A DNA stretch of 25,877 nucleotides. Source: a virus. Positions 79 to 25,877 of this stretch are shown in pieces. The first letter of the stretch is position 1. Each line of letters opens with the position of its first letter. Position numbers and translations under genes: made by a program. Under the pieces are notes generated by a model. The model made no database searches. It was given only the letters and a program-made list of their open reading frames with translations, and was not told the DNA's origin. The stretch is taken from positions 1 through 25,877 of the IMG/VR virus record IMGVR_UViG_3300020471_001340; one strand, given 5' to 3'.

Positions 79-1548
79 CTACCCAAATAGTTCGTTAAAC
101 TTTGTTGCCGCATTTACAGTTTTTTTGCCTATTGCACCTCTAGTGCCGATGATAGACATCCAGAATCTTGAAAACTCTTCTATTACCAAGTTCGCTTCGT
201 CTCTGTTGTCAGTTGCAAATATTGCTTCCACAACATCTTTAAAAAATAACCTGTCGAATTGCTCTTCAACAAGCATGTTCGGAATGACGCCATTGTCGTA
301 TTGTCTATTGGCTTCTTGTACTGCATTGATATGACTCCACACATTATGTCCCATTTGAATAGCATATGAAAAACTATCCCAACTAGTTTTACCTTCTTTA
401 CCTATTTTATTTAAATCTCCTGGACCATATACACATATATCTTTGGCTTGTAATTCTGCTGTCACAGGAGAATCTTTAAAACTTGTATGTTTACCTTCTC
501 TTACAAATGCACTTGCAAACGGACTTGAATCGTTAGCTAAAGACTTATCGTCTATACTAGGCACCATTCGATACACCCATTTTGCTCTATCTTGTGTTTC
601 TAGTTCACAATAAATCTGTCCGTTTGCAGTTGCTAAGAACGGTGATGCACAATCAAATGTAACCATAAAGTTAGGATTATGATATTTTCTAACTGCTCTT
701 TGTATGTCAGTTAACAATGTAGCCCATTCTAATTTTGATGTGCCTAGAAAATGCATAACATCATGTACGCCTTTTTCTAATAATCCATCGAATCTCAAAG
801 CAACCAAACGTTTCAAAACTAGATGAACATCACACATATTCTGTCCACCCATTGACCAGCCATTAAAGTGTCTATCTGGATATACTTTAGGATCGCAGTA
901 ATCTTTCATTTGATCATACCAATCATCTGCGTCTGCGTGATTTTCTCCTTGTAAAACATTCAAAAATTTGCAATCACCTGTCCTGTGTTGCATAAAATAA
1001 TCATTATTAATTCGTGTTGCTTTAACTGCTTCTGCATATGTACTAATGCCTGTTGCTTTTGCACCTTCAGGAGATCGTGAAACCCAAGCTGGAATATCAA
1101 GTATCATTCCATAGTCCATATAAGCATCCATCCAACGTAAAACACCATCACGTTTCTTTTGAGCTTTAGGACAATTAGGATCCTTCCAATCACCTTCCCA
1201 AACACCTTTACCAATTTGGAAACCACCGGAATCGCCTAATAACCAAGTGTTTGCTCTATCTCTATTACGAACCATATCTTCTTTAGGCACAAATTTATTA
1301 GTATCTAAATCAGCATGTCCTGCAGAGTATAGTGTCCATTTATACTGAAACATTCCTTCTTGGTTATTAAGATAATTAAGGCTTTCTACTCCGTTAGGAA
1401 AATTGCTAGGTATTCTAGCTGGATCAACATAAGGCCCTTTAACAGGATCAGGATGACGCTGTTTACCAATATAAGTGGCAAAGAAACCACTCAATGCTGG
1501 TAAGAAAGTTGCGTAATCTTTCTGAGCTGTTGTTAAGTCTGTGATCAT
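79..1548 (-). CDS. dpdA: TGT-superfamily transglycosylase, DpdA-like (candidate 7-deazaguanine DNA modification enzyme)
   Basis: A 489-residue protein with the signature of tRNA-guanine transglycosylases (TGT). GDSGGFQIG carries the general-base Asp (about residue 106). VLQGENH matches the TGT VQGG region, GWSMGGQN the glycine-rich substrate loop, and HFLGTS the LMGVG motif. FDCASPFLATANGQ matches the bacterial FDCVxPTRNAxxG segment that carries the nucleophile Asp (about residue 299). The Cys-x-Cys-x2-Cys...His zinc site that follows in true TGT enzymes is not visible. In known phages, TGT homologues of this divergent kind (DpdA) insert preQ0-type bases into DNA to evade restriction; the role here is inferred. 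I chose the ATG at 1548, preceded by AGGTAAC and overlapping the stop of the 37-aa ORF (ATGA), over an upstream in-frame TTG at 1575. No preQ0 synthesis genes lie in this window. A tRNA role cannot be excluded. Confidence 0.72.
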   Translation of the reverse strand: MITDLTTAQKDYATFLPALSGFFATYIGKQRHPDPVKGPYVDPARIPSNFPNGVESLNYLNNQEGMFQYKWTLYSAGHADLDTNKFVPKEDMVRNRDRANTWLLGDSGGFQIGKGVWEGDWKDPNCPKAQKKRDGVLRWMDAYMDYGMILDIPAWVSRSPEGAKATGISTYAEAVKATRINNDYFMQHRTGDCKFLNVLQGENHADADDWYDQMKDYCDPKVYPDRHFNGWSMGGQNMCDVHLVLKRLVALRFDGLLEKGVHDVMHFLGTSKLEWATLLTDIQRAVRKYHNPNFMVTFDCASPFLATANGQIYCELETQDRAKWVYRMVPSIDDKSLANDSSPFASAFVREGKHTSFKDSPVTAELQAKDICVYGPGDLNKIGKEGKTSWDSFSYAIQMGHNVWSHINAVQEANRQYDNGVIPNMLVEEQFDRLFFKDVVEAIFATDNRDEANLVIEEFSRFWMSIIGTRGAIGKKTVNAATKFNELFG

Positions 1549-1658
1549 GTTACCTGCACAGCAATATACACACAAAGGGCAAGTATTGCTAACTTGCCAT
1601 AGTCAAGGTCAAAGTCTGTACCTTCACCATACTTTTTTCTAAATTCACTAAACTTCAT
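1545..1658 (-). CDS. 37-residue single-pass membrane peptide, unknown function
   Basis: A short ORF not covered by long-ORF calling. It has an ATG at 1658 preceded by a strong AGGAGG site at 4-nt spacing and ends in a TGA that overlaps the start of the DpdA-like gene (ATGA). The peptide begins MKFSEFRKKYGEGTDFDL and ends in a hydrophobic stretch (about residues 21-36, KLAILALCVYIAVQV). It is therefore charged at the N terminus with a C-terminal membrane helix. The good ribosome site and the coupled stop/start make it credible as a gene. It may also serve as a leader that delivers ribosomes to the transglycosylase gene. No family recognised. Confidence 0.6.
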   Translation of the reverse strand: MKFSEFRKKYGEGTDFDLDYGKLAILALCVYIAVQVT

Positions 1659-3159: not shown

Positions 3160-3878
3160 AGTGCTATTCCTAATTCTTTAAAATATTCAAGATATTCTTT
3201 TGTTTGCGACCAGTTTATTACTGATCTGCTTGCACTTACTACTTGTGCAAGAGGGTAGTCATTTCCATCTTCGTCCATTCTATCTCCGAAGAAATATGTC
3301 TTATCTTGTGGACCAAAGTCTTTTATAATTTGTGCTTTATCAGTGCCTACGGGTGATATATCTATTCCTGTTTCCCCGCCTACAGTTGCTTTAATATTAG
3401 GAAATAAGAAGTTGAAATTTTTTGCAATTATGTTTCTTTCATTTGTAAGTGTATCATACTTGAAATAGTCTGCCCTTTGTTCATTATTAGCATTTCTGCC
3501 TACTACACTAAAATTTACCATACCAGGTCGATGTTCGAAATGTAAACCTGTTCTAATTTTAAAATCACTTTCAGTTAATTGAATACTTAACCATTCGTGT
3601 GCATCTTCAGGTAAAATCCAATCATTGGTTCGTACATTTACATCTTTTTCCCAAACATCATTACCATTACAATTATAAACCCTTTGACATTTATTATAGA
3701 TAGTTTCTCCAATTTGTTCAATTGTCTTAGGCCTATCACTCCCAGTCACAAGGTATACCTCATTAGAGTTACAAAAATCTCTAAACCAAACTGCAAATCT
3801 TTTATCTATAGGTTGTCGACTTGGAGTTAATGTTCCGTCAACATCAAATATAAATTTATTTTTTAGTTTTTTTGTCAC
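3156..3878 (-). CDS. HAD-superfamily hydrolase resembling eukaryotic-type phosphomannomutase
   Basis: About 240 residues. FIFDVDGTLTPSRQPID is HAD motif I with both aspartates. YLVTGSDRPKTIEQIG matches the VGGSD motif II region of PMM. FEHRPGMVNFSVVGRN matches the FRNGMLNVSPIGR motif, GGETGIDISPVGTDKAQ the GGQISFDVFPxGWDK segment, and YFFGDRMDEDGNDYP the FFGDKTxPGGNDYE acidic motif IV. This motif order is that of PMM1/PMM2-type enzymes, which interconvert mannose-6-phosphate and mannose-1-phosphate. I prefer the GTG at 3878 (AGGAAG site just upstream) over the ATG at 3899, which has no site. It overlaps the 60-aa gene before it and is ATGA-coupled to the epimerase, consistent with a GDP-mannose-like sugar route. 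Mutase versus phosphatase activity is not settled by sequence reading. Confidence 0.75.
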   Translation of the reverse strand: MTKKLKNKFIFDVDGTLTPSRQPIDKRFAVWFRDFCNSNEVYLVTGSDRPKTIEQIGETIYNKCQRVYNCNGNDVWEKDVNVRTNDWILPEDAHEWLSIQLTESDFKIRTGLHFEHRPGMVNFSVVGRNANNEQRADYFKYDTLTNERNIIAKNFNFLFPNIKATVGGETGIDISPVGTDKAQIIKDFGPQDKTYFFGDRMDEDGNDYPLAQVVSASRSVINWSQTKEYLEYFKELGIAL

Positions 3879-4038
3879 CTTTCTTCTTCCTTTTAGCATA
3901 CATACCGCTTGTATATTCTACCTCTTCAGAACGAGCACCATAAGGATAAACTGTAATTTTATTTCCTTTTGCTAACCATTCGTCTATTAATTTTTTATCT
4001 TCCGCTCTCTCTTTTTCTCTTTCATCGTTTATGCTCAT
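3856..4038 (-). CDS. Small basic hypothetical protein
   Basis: 60 residues, highly charged, with the central motif KGNKITVYPYGARSE and a lysine-rich tail (KRKKKGDKKTKK). I recall similar short proteins with an ITVYPYGARSE-like core from marine T4-like phages, but no function is known to me. Its start overlaps the stop of the cytidylyltransferase gene by 4 nt and its 3' end overlaps the HAD gene, so it is embedded in the sugar-related operon. The basic tail could bind nucleic acid; this is speculation. Confidence 0.7.
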   Translation of the reverse strand: MSINDEREKERAEDKKLIDEWLAKGNKITVYPYGARSEEVEYTSGMYAKRKKKGDKKTKK

Positions 4039-4451
4039 CTGTCCTCCGTTTCAGCAACTCGTGAACGTAAATCACTTGTGCTGAATCGGTGATCTCGTTT
4101 ATTAAAATGTAAGTCAATATCTCTACTACGACATATATCTTTACCTGTAAAATCTTTGTCTCGATATTCTTCTCCTAGTATTCTTACATTAATAGGATAC
4201 ATTTGTAAAATATCTTCTAAATCTTTTTCGGTGCCATAAGGAATAATTTCGTCTACATATTCAACTGCATTAAGTTGTGTATACCTTTCGACAATACTTT
4301 GTATAGGAGCATTTTTTTCTTTTCTATCTAAACTAGGATCAACTTGTAACCCTACTAACAAATAGTCACATTGTTCTTTTGCTTCACGTAGCATTATCAC
4401 ATGTCCAGCATGTAATAAATCAAAAGTTGAGCATGTAAATCCTACCTTCAT
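4035..4451 (-). CDS. Cytidylyltransferase-like nucleotidyltransferase (TagD/GCT type)
   Basis: 138 residues from the ATG at 4451 (MKVGFTCSTFDLLHAGHV). The HxGH nucleotide-binding motif is LLHAGH near residue 15, and the C-terminal signature is FSTSDLRSR (STSxxR), both typical of the glycerol-3-phosphate cytidylyltransferase family. The internal GLQVDPSLDRKEKNAP and RILGEEYRDKDFTGK segments also fit. Such enzymes join CTP (or ATP) to a phosphorylated alcohol or sugar. I chose 4451 because it forms a TAATG overlap with the cupin gene stop; an extended frame starting at 4481 adds eleven unlikely residues. It is part of the sugar-related group between polymerase and clamp. The acceptor is unknown. 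Confidence 0.82.
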   Translation of the reverse strand: MKVGFTCSTFDLLHAGHVIMLREAKEQCDYLLVGLQVDPSLDRKEKNAPIQSIVERYTQLNAVEYVDEIIPYGTEKDLEDILQMYPINVRILGEEYRDKDFTGKDICRSRDIDLHFNKRDHRFSTSDLRSRVAETEDR

Positions 4452-4780
4452 TAGTGTTTCCTTTTTCCATCGAAGACACAAACAAAATACATGTCTGCAT
4501 CACGCAAATTCATTACCTTATGAAATACTCCATCTTGGATAGGTACTACATCGCCTGCTTCTACTTTAATAAATTCATTATCCAATTGCATTTGTCCTGC
4601 CCCTTCAATAAAGAAATAAACTTCTTCTTGACCATCATGACTATGCCCACTTGTTTGTTTATGCCCATGCAATCTTGTACTACTTAGAACAAGTGTATTA
4701 CCAAAGGGATTGTCTTTTACCACATACCTATCATCCTGTTTAGCAATATAACCACCAATGTCATCAATGTTTACTTTCAT
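4451..4780 (-). CDS. Cupin-domain protein (small, possibly sugar-phosphate isomerase-like)
   Basis: 109 residues with a single cupin barrel. Motif 1 is HGHKQTSGHSHDGQEEVYFFIEG (cut here to key parts: SGHSHDGQEEVYF, with His, His and Glu metal ligands). Motif 2 is GDVVPIQDGVFHKVMN, carrying the third His. The start at 4780 has a GGAG site 7 nt upstream, which makes it better than an in-frame start at 4867 inside the polymerase gene. Cupins of this size include mannose-6-phosphate isomerase-like proteins, which would fit the PMM-like neighbour, but the domain is too general to assign a reaction. It follows the polymerase stop by 10 nt and is TAATG-coupled to the cytidylyltransferase. Confidence 0.82.
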   Translation of the reverse strand: MKVNIDDIGGYIAKQDDRYVVKDNPFGNTLVLSSTRLHGHKQTSGHSHDGQEEVYFFIEGAGQMQLDNEFIKVEAGDVVPIQDGVFHKVMNLRDADMYFVCVFDGKRKH

Positions 4781-23647: not shown

Positions 23648-24373
23648 ATGGGTGCAAAACGAGCCTCTCGTAAGAGACATAACTCAAGCAATAACTACAG
23701 CAATGTAGTAGAACTCAACACATATCAAAAACAACGAAACGTTACAATAATTCCCCGAAATAAAAATCAAGAAACTTATGTTTTAAAACTGTTAGATGAC
23801 ACCAAGGACATTGTCTTTGGAATCGGTCCGGCTGGTACGGGAAAAACACTACTAGCAGTTCAGGTCGCAGTAAAATTATTTAAGGCAGGCGTTATTGATA
23901 AAATTATTGTAACTAGACCAGCAGTCTCAGCTGATGAAGATCTAGGGTTTTTACCTGGTACATTAGAACAAAAAATGGCACCATGGACAAGACCTATATT
24001 CGATGTTTTAAGAGAATATTTTCAAGCAAGGGAAATAGAAGGTATGATTGATGAAGGCATCATTGAAATTGCGCCATTAGCATATATGCGTGGGCGTACT
24101 TTTAAACACAGCTTTATTTTAGCTGATGAGATGCAAAATGCTACCCCTAATCAAATGAAAATGTTACTAACTAGACTTGGCGAAGGAAGTCAAATGGCTG
24201 TAACAGGCGATTTAGCACAAGCTGATCGCTTGAATGAAAACGGCTTAATTGACTTTGCTCGCAAGCTAACAAATAGTAACCTTAGCCATTTGGACATAGT
24301 CCACTTCGCTCAAGGAGATATTGAGCGACATCAAGCAGTTAAGGAGGTCCTGGAAATATACGGAGATGAATGA
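23648..24373 (+). CDS. phoH: PhoH-family ATPase
   Basis: 241 residues, the only clear plus-strand gene. After a basic N terminus (MGAKRASRKRHNSSNN) come FGIGPAGTGKTLLAV (Walker A at about 60-67), VTRPAVSADEDLGFLPG and the Walker B region ILADEMQNATPNQMKMLLTR. The motif AVTGDLAQAD is typical of PhoH helicase/ATPases. PhoH is very common in marine phages; it is often linked to phosphate stress but its role in infection is unclear, possibly RNA handling. The start has an AAAGGAGG site 8 nt upstream. It faces the PqqA cassette across a shared terminator. Confidence 0.95.
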   Translation: MGAKRASRKRHNSSNNYSNVVELNTYQKQRNVTIIPRNKNQETYVLKLLDDTKDIVFGIGPAGTGKTLLAVQVAVKLFKAGVIDKIIVTRPAVSADEDLGFLPGTLEQKMAPWTRPIFDVLREYFQAREIEGMIDEGIIEIAPLAYMRGRTFKHSFILADEMQNATPNQMKMLLTRLGEGSQMAVTGDLAQADRLNENGLIDFARKLTNSNLSHLDIVHFAQGDIERHQAVKEVLEIYGDE

Positions 24374-24374
24374 A

Positions 24375-24402
24375 AATAGTGGGGGAGAAATCCCCCACTA
24401 TT
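24375..24402. terminator. Bidirectional hairpin terminator between phoH and the converging cassette
   Basis: A perfect 12-bp stem (AATAGTGGGGGA with TCCCCCACTATT) closed by a GAAA tetraloop. It begins one base after the phoH stop codon and, on the other side, overlaps the stop of the 26-aa peptide gene. The minus-strand side is followed by TTTTCATT, the plus side by AATCC, so the T-run is better for leftward transcripts. The five consecutive G:C pairs make it very stable. Confidence 0.85.
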
Positions 24403-24481
24403 AATCCGGAAATAGGTGTATCACTATCATAGCAAATACGATGTATGCTATACCTATAATTATAGGACTTAATTCACCCAT
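24401..24481 (-). CDS. 26-residue single-pass membrane peptide
   Basis: An ATG at 24481 gives MGELSPIIIGIAYIVFAMIV and ends IHLFPD. Nearly all of residues 5-24 are hydrophobic, so it is one membrane helix with short polar ends. It starts 3 nt after the PqqA-like stop (TAA-GTG-ATG), and its stop lies against the terminator, so it is the last gene of the cassette. The ribosome site is weak, which fits re-initiation from the gene before. Function unknown; an accessory subunit for a membrane redox protein is one speculation. Confidence 0.6.
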   Translation of the reverse strand: MGELSPIIIGIAYIVFAMIVIHLFPD

Positions 24482-24484
24482 CAC

Positions 24485-24556
24485 TTAGTTGCTCTTAGCA
24501 TACATTGTGATTTCGAAGCCAAGTCTTATATTTTCATACGTTGGTTTTGTCCACAT
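24485..24556 (-). CDS. pqqA: PqqA-like precursor peptide of pyrroloquinoline quinone
   Basis: A 23-residue ORF with AGGAG 7 nt before its ATG. The peptide is [19 protein letters not shown] followed by AKSN. Compared from memory with Klebsiella PqqA (23 residues), it shares the MWxKP start, the RLG turn and, decisively, E15 and Y19 in the E-x-T-x-Y arrangement. These are the two residues that PqqE cross-links and that become the PQQ skeleton. The length is also the same. It overlaps the end of the 73-aa lipoprotein gene by 23 nt in another frame. No pqqB-E genes are visible, so the phage would have to rely on host enzymes (inference). PQQ is the cofactor of periplasmic methanol, alcohol and sugar dehydrogenases. 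Confidence 0.82.
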
Positions 24557-24755
24557 AGTTTTTCTCCTGTGCAATTTTGAAGAGATCTTCGGCAGCACAA
24601 TGTGGTGCAGACCTACAATCTCTTAGGTTTCTCTGGAATCTAAGAGGATCTATAAAGTTCATAGGTTGTGGATCATCGTAATATTCCAAAAAATCTGTTG
24701 GGCCAGGCGTATGGCAACCGGCTAGTAAAAAACAAACTAATAAAAGTTTTTTCAT
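24534..24755 (-). CDS. Small lipoprotein
   Basis: 73 residues. The signal peptide [14 protein letters not shown] has a good lipobox (LLAGC, Cys at 14), so the mature form is a lipid-anchored protein of about 60 residues: [20 protein letters not shown], then [20 protein letters not shown] and a polar end. Two cysteines in the mature part (DCRSAPHC) could form a disulfide or bind metal. It is ATGA-coupled to the 57-aa lipoprotein before it, and its end overlaps the PqqA-like gene. Family unknown. Confidence 0.75.
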
Positions 24756-24925
24756 CTAATCATCCTTTGTTGTATTTCTCTATAATTCATGCTAACATTA
24801 GGCCTTAAACTCTGCATGAAGATATCTTGATTTCTCATAGTTTGCATAGACCAGTCTTGTGCCGACCTTTCTGGCAAATTACTACAGCCAGTTAATAAAA
24901 TACATGTAAGTATTAGTCTTTTCAT
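24752..24925 (-). CDS. Small lipoprotein, 57 residues
   Basis: An ORF too short for most callers: ATG at 24925, TGA overlapping the next start (ATGA), and its own start overlapping the stop of the copper-enzyme gene (ATGA). The product starts MKRLILTCILLTGC, a signal peptide with lipobox LLTGC (Cys at 14). A polar, Met/Gln-rich mature part follows (SNLPERSAQDWSMQTMRNQD and [19 protein letters not shown]). Met-rich segments sometimes bind copper, which would suit the neighbour, but this is speculation. Family unknown. Confidence 0.72.
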   Translation of the reverse strand: MKRLILTCILLTGCSNLPERSAQDWSMQTMRNQDIFMQSLRPNVSMNYREIQQRMIR

Positions 24926-25877
24926 TTTTCTGCTAACATCCTTTGAGCTTTTAGCTCATTGTATCCTTCCTCATCTAAGTGTGTAATTGCAAGCCAGGCA
25001 TGAGTCATTTCATCTCCTGTCCTACTACCACCCATTACCCACATGTCAGGATCAGGATTGTTTGGGTTATTTGCGGTATTGTCATACCACTGCTTCAATA
25101 TAATAACTGCACCTGCAGGTATTAATGGGGCTACATGTGGTTCAAATAAATGACTGTGGTGCCATGTTGCACTCCAATTAGATATTTGACTCACAGGTTC
25201 TGTACGACCAGTTTCTGGATAAAATATTTCTAAACTAGCCGCATTCATTCTCAAATGTCCGTGTGGTTGAAAGCTATCTAAACGCACAGGATGATCAAAA
25301 CTGTGGAAACCTTGTGTCATATGATAGCCATGTGGAGGAATAACGATATCGTCTTGATTGCCTAGCCGATATAAACTTAAATCTTGTTTGTATTTCAGTT
25401 CTTGGCTTTCCTCTTCGCTGTATAACCAAAGTCCAATTTCCACCACGTTGTCTTTGATAACTGTACCTGGAGCCATTGTTCCTAAACCGCCAGGAAACAT
25501 ATGTATGTCCCAACGAACTTGTGAATTTGCAGGAAGTGTCCTGCAAACTCCTTCCGGAACAATCTCTCCCCACTTTCCCATAGCGTATTCCGTAAGCATA
25601 CCTTCACGACCTCCATCAATAACTACATTAGAATTAGCATGATGAACTACAGACTTTGCATCGCCCCTAGGTTTTACTTGCACTGCTTTAATACATCTGT
25701 CTTCTGTGAGTCCTGTCGGTACTAGATGCTTGTGCCACAGATCGTTACCACTTGCTGGAATATCTATAGGAACGCTAGGAATTATTAGATTCGGTGGACC
25801 AAAGTCTCCAGCAAAATTCCATTGGTCTGGATCAGCAAGATTAGGAGGTTGCACGACTATGTCGGTGTCTCCATATT
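24922..25877 (-). CDS. Copper type II (PHM-like) monooxygenase-family protein, C-terminal part
   Basis: The frame is open to the window edge (YGDTDIVVQPPNLADP precedes the first possible GTG at 25854), so the N terminus is missing. Counting from that GTG, HLVPTGLTEDRCIKAVQVKP leads to VVHHAN (His71-His72), RWDIHMFPGG (His118), FQPHGHLRMN (His198-x-His200) and GDEMTHAW (Met283). The order and spacing match the CuH (H, H, H) and CuM (H, x, H, Met) sites of peptidylglycine monooxygenase. The ending YDNTANNPNNPDPDMWVMGG is typical of bacterial relatives, which often carry a redoxin or cytochrome domain at the N terminus. The bacterial family has no settled substrate. Two lipoproteins and the PqqA-like peptide follow in one coupled unit. 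Confidence 0.75.
   Translation of the reverse strand, partial: YGDTDIVVQPPNLADPDQWNFAGDFGPPNLIIPSVPIDIPASGNDLWHKHLVPTGLTEDRCIKAVQVKPRGDAKSVVHHANSNVVIDGGREGMLTEYAMGKWGEIVPEGVCRTLPANSQVRWDIHMFPGGLGTMAPGTVIKDNVVEIGLWLYSEEESQELKYKQDLSLYRLGNQDDIVIPPHGYHMTQGFHSFDHPVRLDSFQPHGHLRMNAASLEIFYPETGRTEPVSQISNWSATWHHSHLFEPHVAPLIPAGAVIILKQWYDNTANNPNNPDPDMWVMGGSRTGDEMTHAWLAITHLDEEGYNELKAQRMLAEK

Follow-up and report, generated by a model that had tools for sequence, protein, structure and literature searches.

A phage-encoded pqqA gene behind copper monooxygenase-like genes in a jumbo phage, and its probable role in supplying the consumable part of PQQ synthesis

The window, that is, the whole stretch of DNA analysed here, is an entire virus record of 25,877 bases. 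The end of it that carries the gene for the PQQ precursor peptide (pqqA) contains the following features:

23648–24373, plus strand: phoH-like gene, convergent neighbour, found at the same place in L131 and in a 335-kb phage contig
24382–24396, minus strand: terminator-like hairpin separating the pqqA operon from the convergent phoH
24401–24484, minus strand: possible membrane peptide of 26–27 aa (uncertain), starting directly after the pqqA stop
24485–24556, minus strand: pqqA, coding for the 23-aa PQQ precursor peptide with E15 and Y19 intact (from translation, profiles and dN/dS)
24534–24755, minus strand: small lipoprotein of 73 aa, lipobox LLAGC (by eye), its end overlapping the pqqA start by 23 nt
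24564–24568, minus strand: Shine-Dalgarno sequence AGGAG, 7 nt before the pqqA ATG (read from the sequence)
24752–24925, minus strand: small lipoprotein of 57 aa, lipobox LLTGC (by eye)
24922–25877, minus strand: last 317 of the 432 aa of a PHM/DBH-like copper monooxygenase homologue fused to cytochrome c; the N-terminal part lies beyond the record end

The initial annotation had described a 23-aa PqqA-like frame at positions 24485–24556, giving no strand. This frame was confirmed on the minus strand, where it runs from 24556 to 24485, starts with ATG and comprises 23 codons; a plus-strand gene at this place was rejected, as the plus strand encodes no such peptide. The peptide scored over the cut-offs of two curated profiles, Pfam PF08042 (E 3.7e-10; 40 bits, cut-off 21.1) and NCBIfam TIGR02107 (E 9.7e-12; 44.4 bits, cut-off 20), and the PqqA profile is covered over the whole length of the phage peptide. 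In PqqA, a Glu/Tyr pair four residues apart is the source of PQQ. The same pair had been claimed to be intact in the phage peptide, and the minus-strand translation bore this out, E15 and Y19 both being present at that spacing; the AGGAG site mentioned there was likewise found, 7 nt before the ATG. The PqqA core DNA pattern occurred once in the window and in none of 100 dinucleotide shuffles, and, given this result and the two profile scores, a chance match was rejected. After Tyr19, the window peptide ends in AKSN, and its syntenic relatives have F[SK]xR at this position.

The window aligned end to end, at 99.1% identity, with part of a 335,231-base contig (PBPT01000016.1; L318) whose PqqA peptide is identical to that of the window. 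Its DNA polymerase was closest to those of phages of 349–490 kb, such as Sinorhizobium phage Phosso, Agrobacterium phage Atu_ph07 and Cronobacter phage GAP32 (among the best 15 of 2,414 records), and its genes also code for PhoH, endolysin, spanins, a Clp-type ATPase, a DnaJ-like protein and virion proteins. This phage gene content and the polymerase kinship indicated that the window is a piece of a jumbo phage. The 335-kb contig is titled part of a Neomarinimicrobiota MAG, and it is most simply explained as a misbinned relative of the window phage. It carries the sole PqqA of that MAG (possibly incomplete), in which neither a PQQ_2 protein nor a PqqE over the cut-off was found. On these grounds, and given that binning is not host evidence, a Neomarinimicrobiota host was not favoured. 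A 7,440-base contig of a Euryarchaeota MAG (L322) also has pqqA with no pqqB–E in its stretch and may be a second misfiled phage. Elsewhere in the window (79–1575, minus strand), a protein of 498 aa matched nothing in Pfam, PHROG or NCBIfam; it contains a DSGGFQ motif, which may recall tRNA-guanine transglycosylase or DpdA proteins.

The gene order around pqqA continues in the 335-kb contig beyond the end of the window: first comes the gene for the 432-aa protein, which begins with a signal-like sequence and contains a CxxCH haem motif, followed by those for the two small lipoproteins, pqqA itself and, on the opposite strand, phoH. Four terminator-like hairpins occur in the region, versus 1.6 expected. 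One scan of viral contigs gave 254 relatives of the 432-aa protein, of which the best 80 were retained. In relatives, the gene or gene pair preceding pqqA codes for PHM/DBH-like copper monooxygenase homologues fused to cytochrome c; of the 87 loci in which such a gene is complete, two copies occur in 45 and a single one in 42. The gap between the end of the second paralogue and pqqA is 10–12 bases in 11 of the 15 syntenic loci containing pqqA and 138 bases in the remaining 4. Short lipoproteins resembling those of the window (by eye) also lie behind the copper-enzyme gene in relatives lacking pqqA. A CHASE2 adenylate/guanylate cyclase is encoded near the copper-enzyme and pqqA genes of one 339,794-base virus record (L169:8844-10916; PF05226 1.5e-38, PF00211 2.6e-16).

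Several lines of analysis bear on the nature of the 432-aa protein. In an alignment of 22 sequences including both paralogues (27–84% identical to the first), CxxCH, His-His, His, His-x-His and Met were invariant; the positions H178, H179, H225, H305, H307 and M390 were conserved in 22/22 sequences, and this HH, H, HxH, M pattern we take to match the six residues that bind copper in PHM and dopamine beta-hydroxylase. For comparison with known structures, a structure model was used. With Foldseek, the top 31 PDB matches were all PHM or DBH (best E 4.9e-10, with a TM-score by query of only 0.29–0.34), as were the top 26 entries obtained with VIA-align (Z 8.3–10.7, rmsd 5.9–7.2). Thus, the product of the upstream gene is predicted to have a PHM/DBH-type fold with candidate copper ligands, in a model with a mean pLDDT of 65 and low TM-scores. 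Sequence profiles placed it outside the thresholds of known families: PF03712 reached 16 bits (cut-off 23) in one paralogue, NCBIfam gave no match, and a PDB sequence search returned two chance-like matches with the copper-enzyme profile and none with the truncated protein of the window. Since no curated family cut-off was passed, the protein is named PHM/DBH-like and not a member of that family.

The coding character of pqqA was assessed by substitution patterns. For seven distinct alleles (those at the syntenic position plus the window), dN/dS was 0.176, and for 96 distinct alleles from pattern matches, considering pattern-free codons only, it was 0.18; in both sets the pairs are non-independent, and in the larger one synonymous sites are far diverged. 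Window-type pqqA is therefore a real short coding gene under purifying selection, with a dN/dS of about 0.18. The initial annotation had also proposed a search with a PqqA profile and a check of the conservation of Glu, Tyr and gene position. A profile built from other phage PqqA peptides detected pqqA in 15 of the best 80 (of 254) loci with a copper-enzyme gene, in every case behind the copper-enzyme genes, and Glu15, Thr17 and Tyr19 were kept in all 15 of these copies, which were found independently of the PqqA pattern. Glu and Tyr were also kept in 8/8 phage records retrieved from a named phage collection (a chromosome-like Acinetobacter record being set aside; see below). Two further pattern scans of viral contigs required Glu, Thr and Tyr, and their copies were consequently excluded as evidence for the conservation of these residues. 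Three outcomes had been named as speaking against the annotation (no profile match, Glu and Tyr not conserved, a non-coding substitution pattern); all were tested and none was observed. Taken together, the curated profiles, the E15/Y19 pair, purifying selection, synteny and the near-identity to PqqA of bacterial operons (see below) support the reading of the window frame as a true, phage-encoded pqqA.

The gene is facultative. No pqqA match was found in 65 of the 80 loci, some of which end close by, and when whole records were searched for 50 loci taken from these 80, PqqA was present in 12. Relatives that lack pqqA have other small frames downstream of the copper-enzyme genes, which makes pqqA an optional insert there. 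To find out how far it is distributed, the window peptide was compared by tblastn with 50,697 phage records, and 12 records matched; a second peptide retrieved the same 12. Nine of them are Methylophilales/Methylophilaceae phages (Venkman EXVC282S, MEP301, MEP401, MEP402, P19250A and four Melnitz), and the remaining three are a Manatee Spring phage and a pair of contigs named 'Acinetobacter phage'. One of the latter, 'Acinetobacter phage MD-2021a' CAKLQF020000010.1, was set aside as a phage copy, because the presence of ppk and pqqBCD makes it chromosome-like; a sister record of the same name, CAKLQH020000055.1, has a PqqA match too. Of nine places retrieved from the 12 records, five have pqqA without annotation. 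In the four Melnitz records a hypothetical protein is annotated under pqqA, on the opposite strand in the two that were retrieved (MZ577095.1:74848-74943 and MZ577098.1:76100-76195). Nine named Methylophilales/Methylophilaceae taxa, which may not be in the collection, were not among the matches (Venkman EXVC038S, phiMB624-A, HIM624-A, MEP431, MEP432, MEP433, MEP434, MG-MtP1 and RSA-MfP1), and for this reason pqqA is not claimed for all phages of these bacteria.

Each of the two pattern scans of viral contigs gave at least 120 matches, and all 120 listed for the first scan were ATG-started frames of 23–25 aa. Overall, at least 242 viral loci (including the 15 syntenic ones; some share a contig) encode 116 distinct peptides, starting with ATG in 241 cases and GTG in one. 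Peptides of OM43 phages form a group with the sequence MWTxPxAxEMRFGFEVTMY, and the window peptide falls into an RLG group. A pattern search meant to find the PqqA of OM43 hosts gave no match in 369 genomes drawn evenly from the class, a set that may contain no Methylophilaceae. The same gene thus recurs in unrelated phages of PQQ users. This recurrence, together with the dN/dS of about 0.18, argues against pqqA being a neutral passenger, acquired with host genes at a variable spot beside phoH and having no effect. Such a passenger would fit the other small frames found at this spot in relatives and the 65 of 80 loci showing no pqqA, and on balance we regard it as very unlikely.

Attention was then given to the partner genes that PqqA would need. 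No match to pqqB, pqqC, pqqD or pqqE was found in any viral locus stretch examined, and none of 47 pqqA-containing records (46 viral ones plus the MAG) has a PqqE over the cut-off. A radical SAM match below the PqqE cut-off was obtained in four of the 47, among them the window's phage contig (G001:C57:153658-154134; 40.6 bits), where it lies about 43 kb from pqqA. These radical SAM proteins would fit the view that an enzyme of this class, from either phage or host, cross-links phage PqqA into another RiPP with a purpose other than PQQ, an alternative already raised in the initial annotation. Their presence in so few records, always below the cut-off, and their distance from pqqA in the window's phage count against this view, as do the fit of the peptide to the PqqA profile along its entire length, the retained Glu/Tyr pair and the likeness to host PqqA; we consider it very improbable. 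PQQ-dependent enzymes were also scarce: a PQQ_2 protein was found in none of the 27 records of the window's group and in 1 of 50 other pqqA-containing viral records, so this phage brings no PQQ enzyme. The one positive record is a pqqA contig (L064; record G076, 72,356 bases) with a 628-residue frame reading as methanol dehydrogenase at about 34406–35671. AmoC/PmoC was found in 1 of 32 pqqA-containing records, an 8,067-base contig (L301), in which pmoC/amoC and pqqA (TIGR02107, 44 bits) are adjacent on one strand (3656–4635, minus) in what looks by eye like a T4-like capsid/tail region. The gene was named pmoC/amoC because it passed both the TIGR03078 (methane/ammonia monooxygenase C; 427 bits) and the NF041641 (bacterial AmoC; 393 versus a cut-off of 319) thresholds. 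On this contig, a subunit of an oxidation enzyme is encoded beside a cofactor precursor.

The possible host of the window phage was approached through bacterial PqqA. A genome scan with the pattern YEN[IV]RLGFE[IVM]TMY retrieved eight stretches: the 335-kb phage contig, L322 and six pqq operons. In five of these operons pqqA lies with pqqB, C, D and E (L319, L320, L321, L324 and L325), and in the sixth with pqqB at the end of the stretch (L323). The six PqqA are identical to the window peptide at 17–18 of 23 residues and to four other phage peptides at 18–22 of 23. The MAGs containing them (G002, G003, G004, G006, G007 and G008) are titled Pseudomonadales (three), Pseudohongiella (one) and Gammaproteobacteria (two), and appear to have an unusual quinoprotein-rich metabolism. 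Each gave 24–49 matches, counted as pieces and not genes, to the PQQ alcohol-dehydrogenase model TIGR03075. The same model was applied to 75 genomes of that class, a set containing one of the six: 11 had any match over the cut-off, and the runner-up had 16 matches, with at most 16 candidates scored per genome. The same six MAGs gave 12–17 matches each to the phage's second copper-enzyme paralogue, with up to 55% identity over almost the full length of the latter. In candidate hosts, copper-enzyme and PQQ dehydrogenase genes are not clearly clustered: at least 5 of 72 lie within 1 kb of each other versus 2.8 expected, and at least 7 within 3 kb versus 5.0.

Since the closest PqqA operons, the PQQ dehydrogenase matches and the copper-enzyme matches all occur there, a quinoprotein-rich gammaproteobacterium, mostly of the Pseudomonadales MAG type, is the likely, though not proven, host of the window phage. 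A methylotroph host was not favoured for this phage, given that its peptide belongs to the RLG group and that the closest bacterial operons are those of other Gammaproteobacteria. The initial annotation had offered a XoxF-type methylotroph as an example; this is not the best fit for the window phage, whose PqqA and neighbouring genes lead to Gammaproteobacteria with many PQQ alcohol dehydrogenases, and it fits the separate Methylophilales phages.

In PQQ synthesis it is PqqA that is consumed, at one peptide for each PQQ formed, the enzymes being reused. Supplying just the 23-aa peptide would consequently be the cheapest route for a phage. We consider it probable that this jumbo phage supplies pqqA as the consumable of PQQ synthesis, and that host enzymes finish PQQ, thereby sustaining quinoprotein dehydrogenases. 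In this process, PqqA peptide would be made by the phage during infection, host PqqE with PqqD would cross-link Glu15 to Tyr19, and host PqqB, PqqC and proteases would complete PQQ, so that periplasmic quinoprotein dehydrogenases and the energy supply of the cell could be kept going after host gene shutdown. The upstream genes, for copper monooxygenase homologues fused to cytochrome c, probably contribute to this as well by sustaining periplasmic oxidation. A boost of host PQQ, as proposed in the initial annotation, is thus the explanation preferred here. Here we infer the host of the phage pqqA, its expression, its processing and its benefit. Several observations count against a supply role: the AKSN tail after Tyr19, the facultative nature of the gene, the lack of a phage PQQ enzyme, the binning of the 335-kb contig with a MAG that showed neither PQQ_2 nor a PqqE over the cut-off, copper-enzyme and PQQ dehydrogenase genes that are not clearly clustered in the candidate hosts, and published work on which steps limit PQQ (see below).

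The differing tail would also suit a decoy or regulator, in which case the phage peptide would keep PqqE/PqqD engaged and reduce or divert PQQ synthesis, for instance so as to halt periplasmic oxidation. A close likeness to the natural substrate speaks for it as well, and is something that a competitor also needs. Loss of Glu15 or Tyr19 would be expected of a decoy, but both are retained in 15/15 syntenic copies and in 8/8 retrieved phage records, and the two contigs that pair pqqA with a methanol dehydrogenase-like protein or with PmoC/AmoC fit supply and not a block. We therefore think it highly unlikely that the peptide acts as a decoy.

The supply of PqqA by the phage can also be set against published work. 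In the passages considered, the literature agrees in part that pqqA dosage matters. In Acetobacter pasteurianus, pqqAB together raised PQQ by 29% and the whole operon eightfold (PMC7936290). Another report describes one methylotroph with five pqqA copies, three of them outside pqq operons, from which it follows that operon linkage is not defining for PqqA, and mentions the conversion to PQQ of PqqA added to a cell-free extract (PMC9851590). The same source names PqqB and PqqC as possible rate-limiting steps, pqqE being the gene that rose most (PMC9851590). PqqA supply thus need not limit PQQ, because PqqB or PqqC may do so and because the 29% rise was obtained with pqqA and pqqB together.

Extending this interpretation, jumbo phages may carry a periplasmic oxidation module, formed by cytochrome c-fused copper monooxygenases and PqqA and tuned to hosts with dozens of quinoprotein dehydrogenases. 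PqqA-only supply may accordingly be a general, convergent phage strategy for PQQ-dependent hosts (Methylophilales, methane and ammonia oxidisers, and quinoprotein-rich Gammaproteobacteria), often overlooked since so short a gene escapes annotation; we lean only slightly towards this broader proposal. The results suggest phages that steer a cofactor rather than an enzyme, by making just its consumable precursor. Should this hold, how much methanol and alcohol abundant aquatic bacteria can oxidise would be determined in part by viral infection. Several pqqA carriers are recorded with cultured hosts (Venkman, MEP301, MEP401, MEP402, P19250A and Melnitz), which makes the proposal directly testable, and pqqA may serve as a sequence clue to PQQ-using hosts for viral contigs with no known host. 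For OM43 strain H5P1, the growth medium is reported to include 1 nM PQQ (PMC9004378), and an effect of phage pqqA could be masked there.

Viral pqqA is already known as a kind, from reports on Lake Baikal (PMC7678222) and on reservoir sediments (PMC13188868). In the open-licence literature passages we did not find the jumbo-phage setting, the link to copper monooxygenases, the quinoprotein-rich likely hosts or the pqqA-pmoC/amoC pairing. Similarly, a phage pqq gene is not named in the passages of the main texts on eight of the nine cultured phages, namely Melnitz, Venkman, MEP301 and MEP401/402 (PMC9004378, PMC8163748, PMC8024684, PMC10580990). As far as these passages go, the new elements are the operon with copper-enzyme genes in a jumbo phage, the type of host that is likely, and pqqA occurring in cultured phages.

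Compared with known PqqA (PF08042, TIGR02107), the window peptide shares the length, the WTKP start, the RLGFE core and the Glu15-x3-Tyr19 spacing and passes both curated cut-offs; it differs in being phage-encoded and outside any pqq operon, with pqqB–E not adjoining. The upstream protein resembles the type II copper monooxygenases PHM and DBH in its fold matches and its invariant HH, H, HxH and M positions, and differs from them in being fused to a c-type cytochrome, phage-borne and only 8–15% identical. With respect to phages, the Lake Baikal population VP_266 was reported to encode PqqA, proposed to support a PQQ enzyme in infection (PMC7678222, Microbiome 2020). As described there, this T4-like phage was assigned to Methylophilaceae and encodes a methanol dehydrogenase. 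The pqqA contig with a methanol dehydrogenase-like protein (L064/G076) is like these Baikal phages, whereas the window phage is a jumbo phage with no PQQ enzyme found in its group, has pqqA behind copper monooxygenase-like genes and points to other Gammaproteobacteria. The study of reservoir sediments lists pqqA, pqqE and pqqD as virus-encoded (PMC13188868, Appl Environ Microbiol 2026); in the passages available it treats pqqA as a phosphate-solubilisation gene and gives no peptide, phage type or neighbours. The pmoC phages of methanotrophs (PMC7674155, Nat Microbiol 2020), in whose available text 'pqq' is absent, share pmoC/amoC with contig L301, where pqqA adjoins it. They too are large phages that encode a single component of an oxidation pathway of the host and depend on the host for the others. 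The difference lies in the component: PmoC is an enzyme subunit, and PqqA is a cofactor precursor that is consumed.
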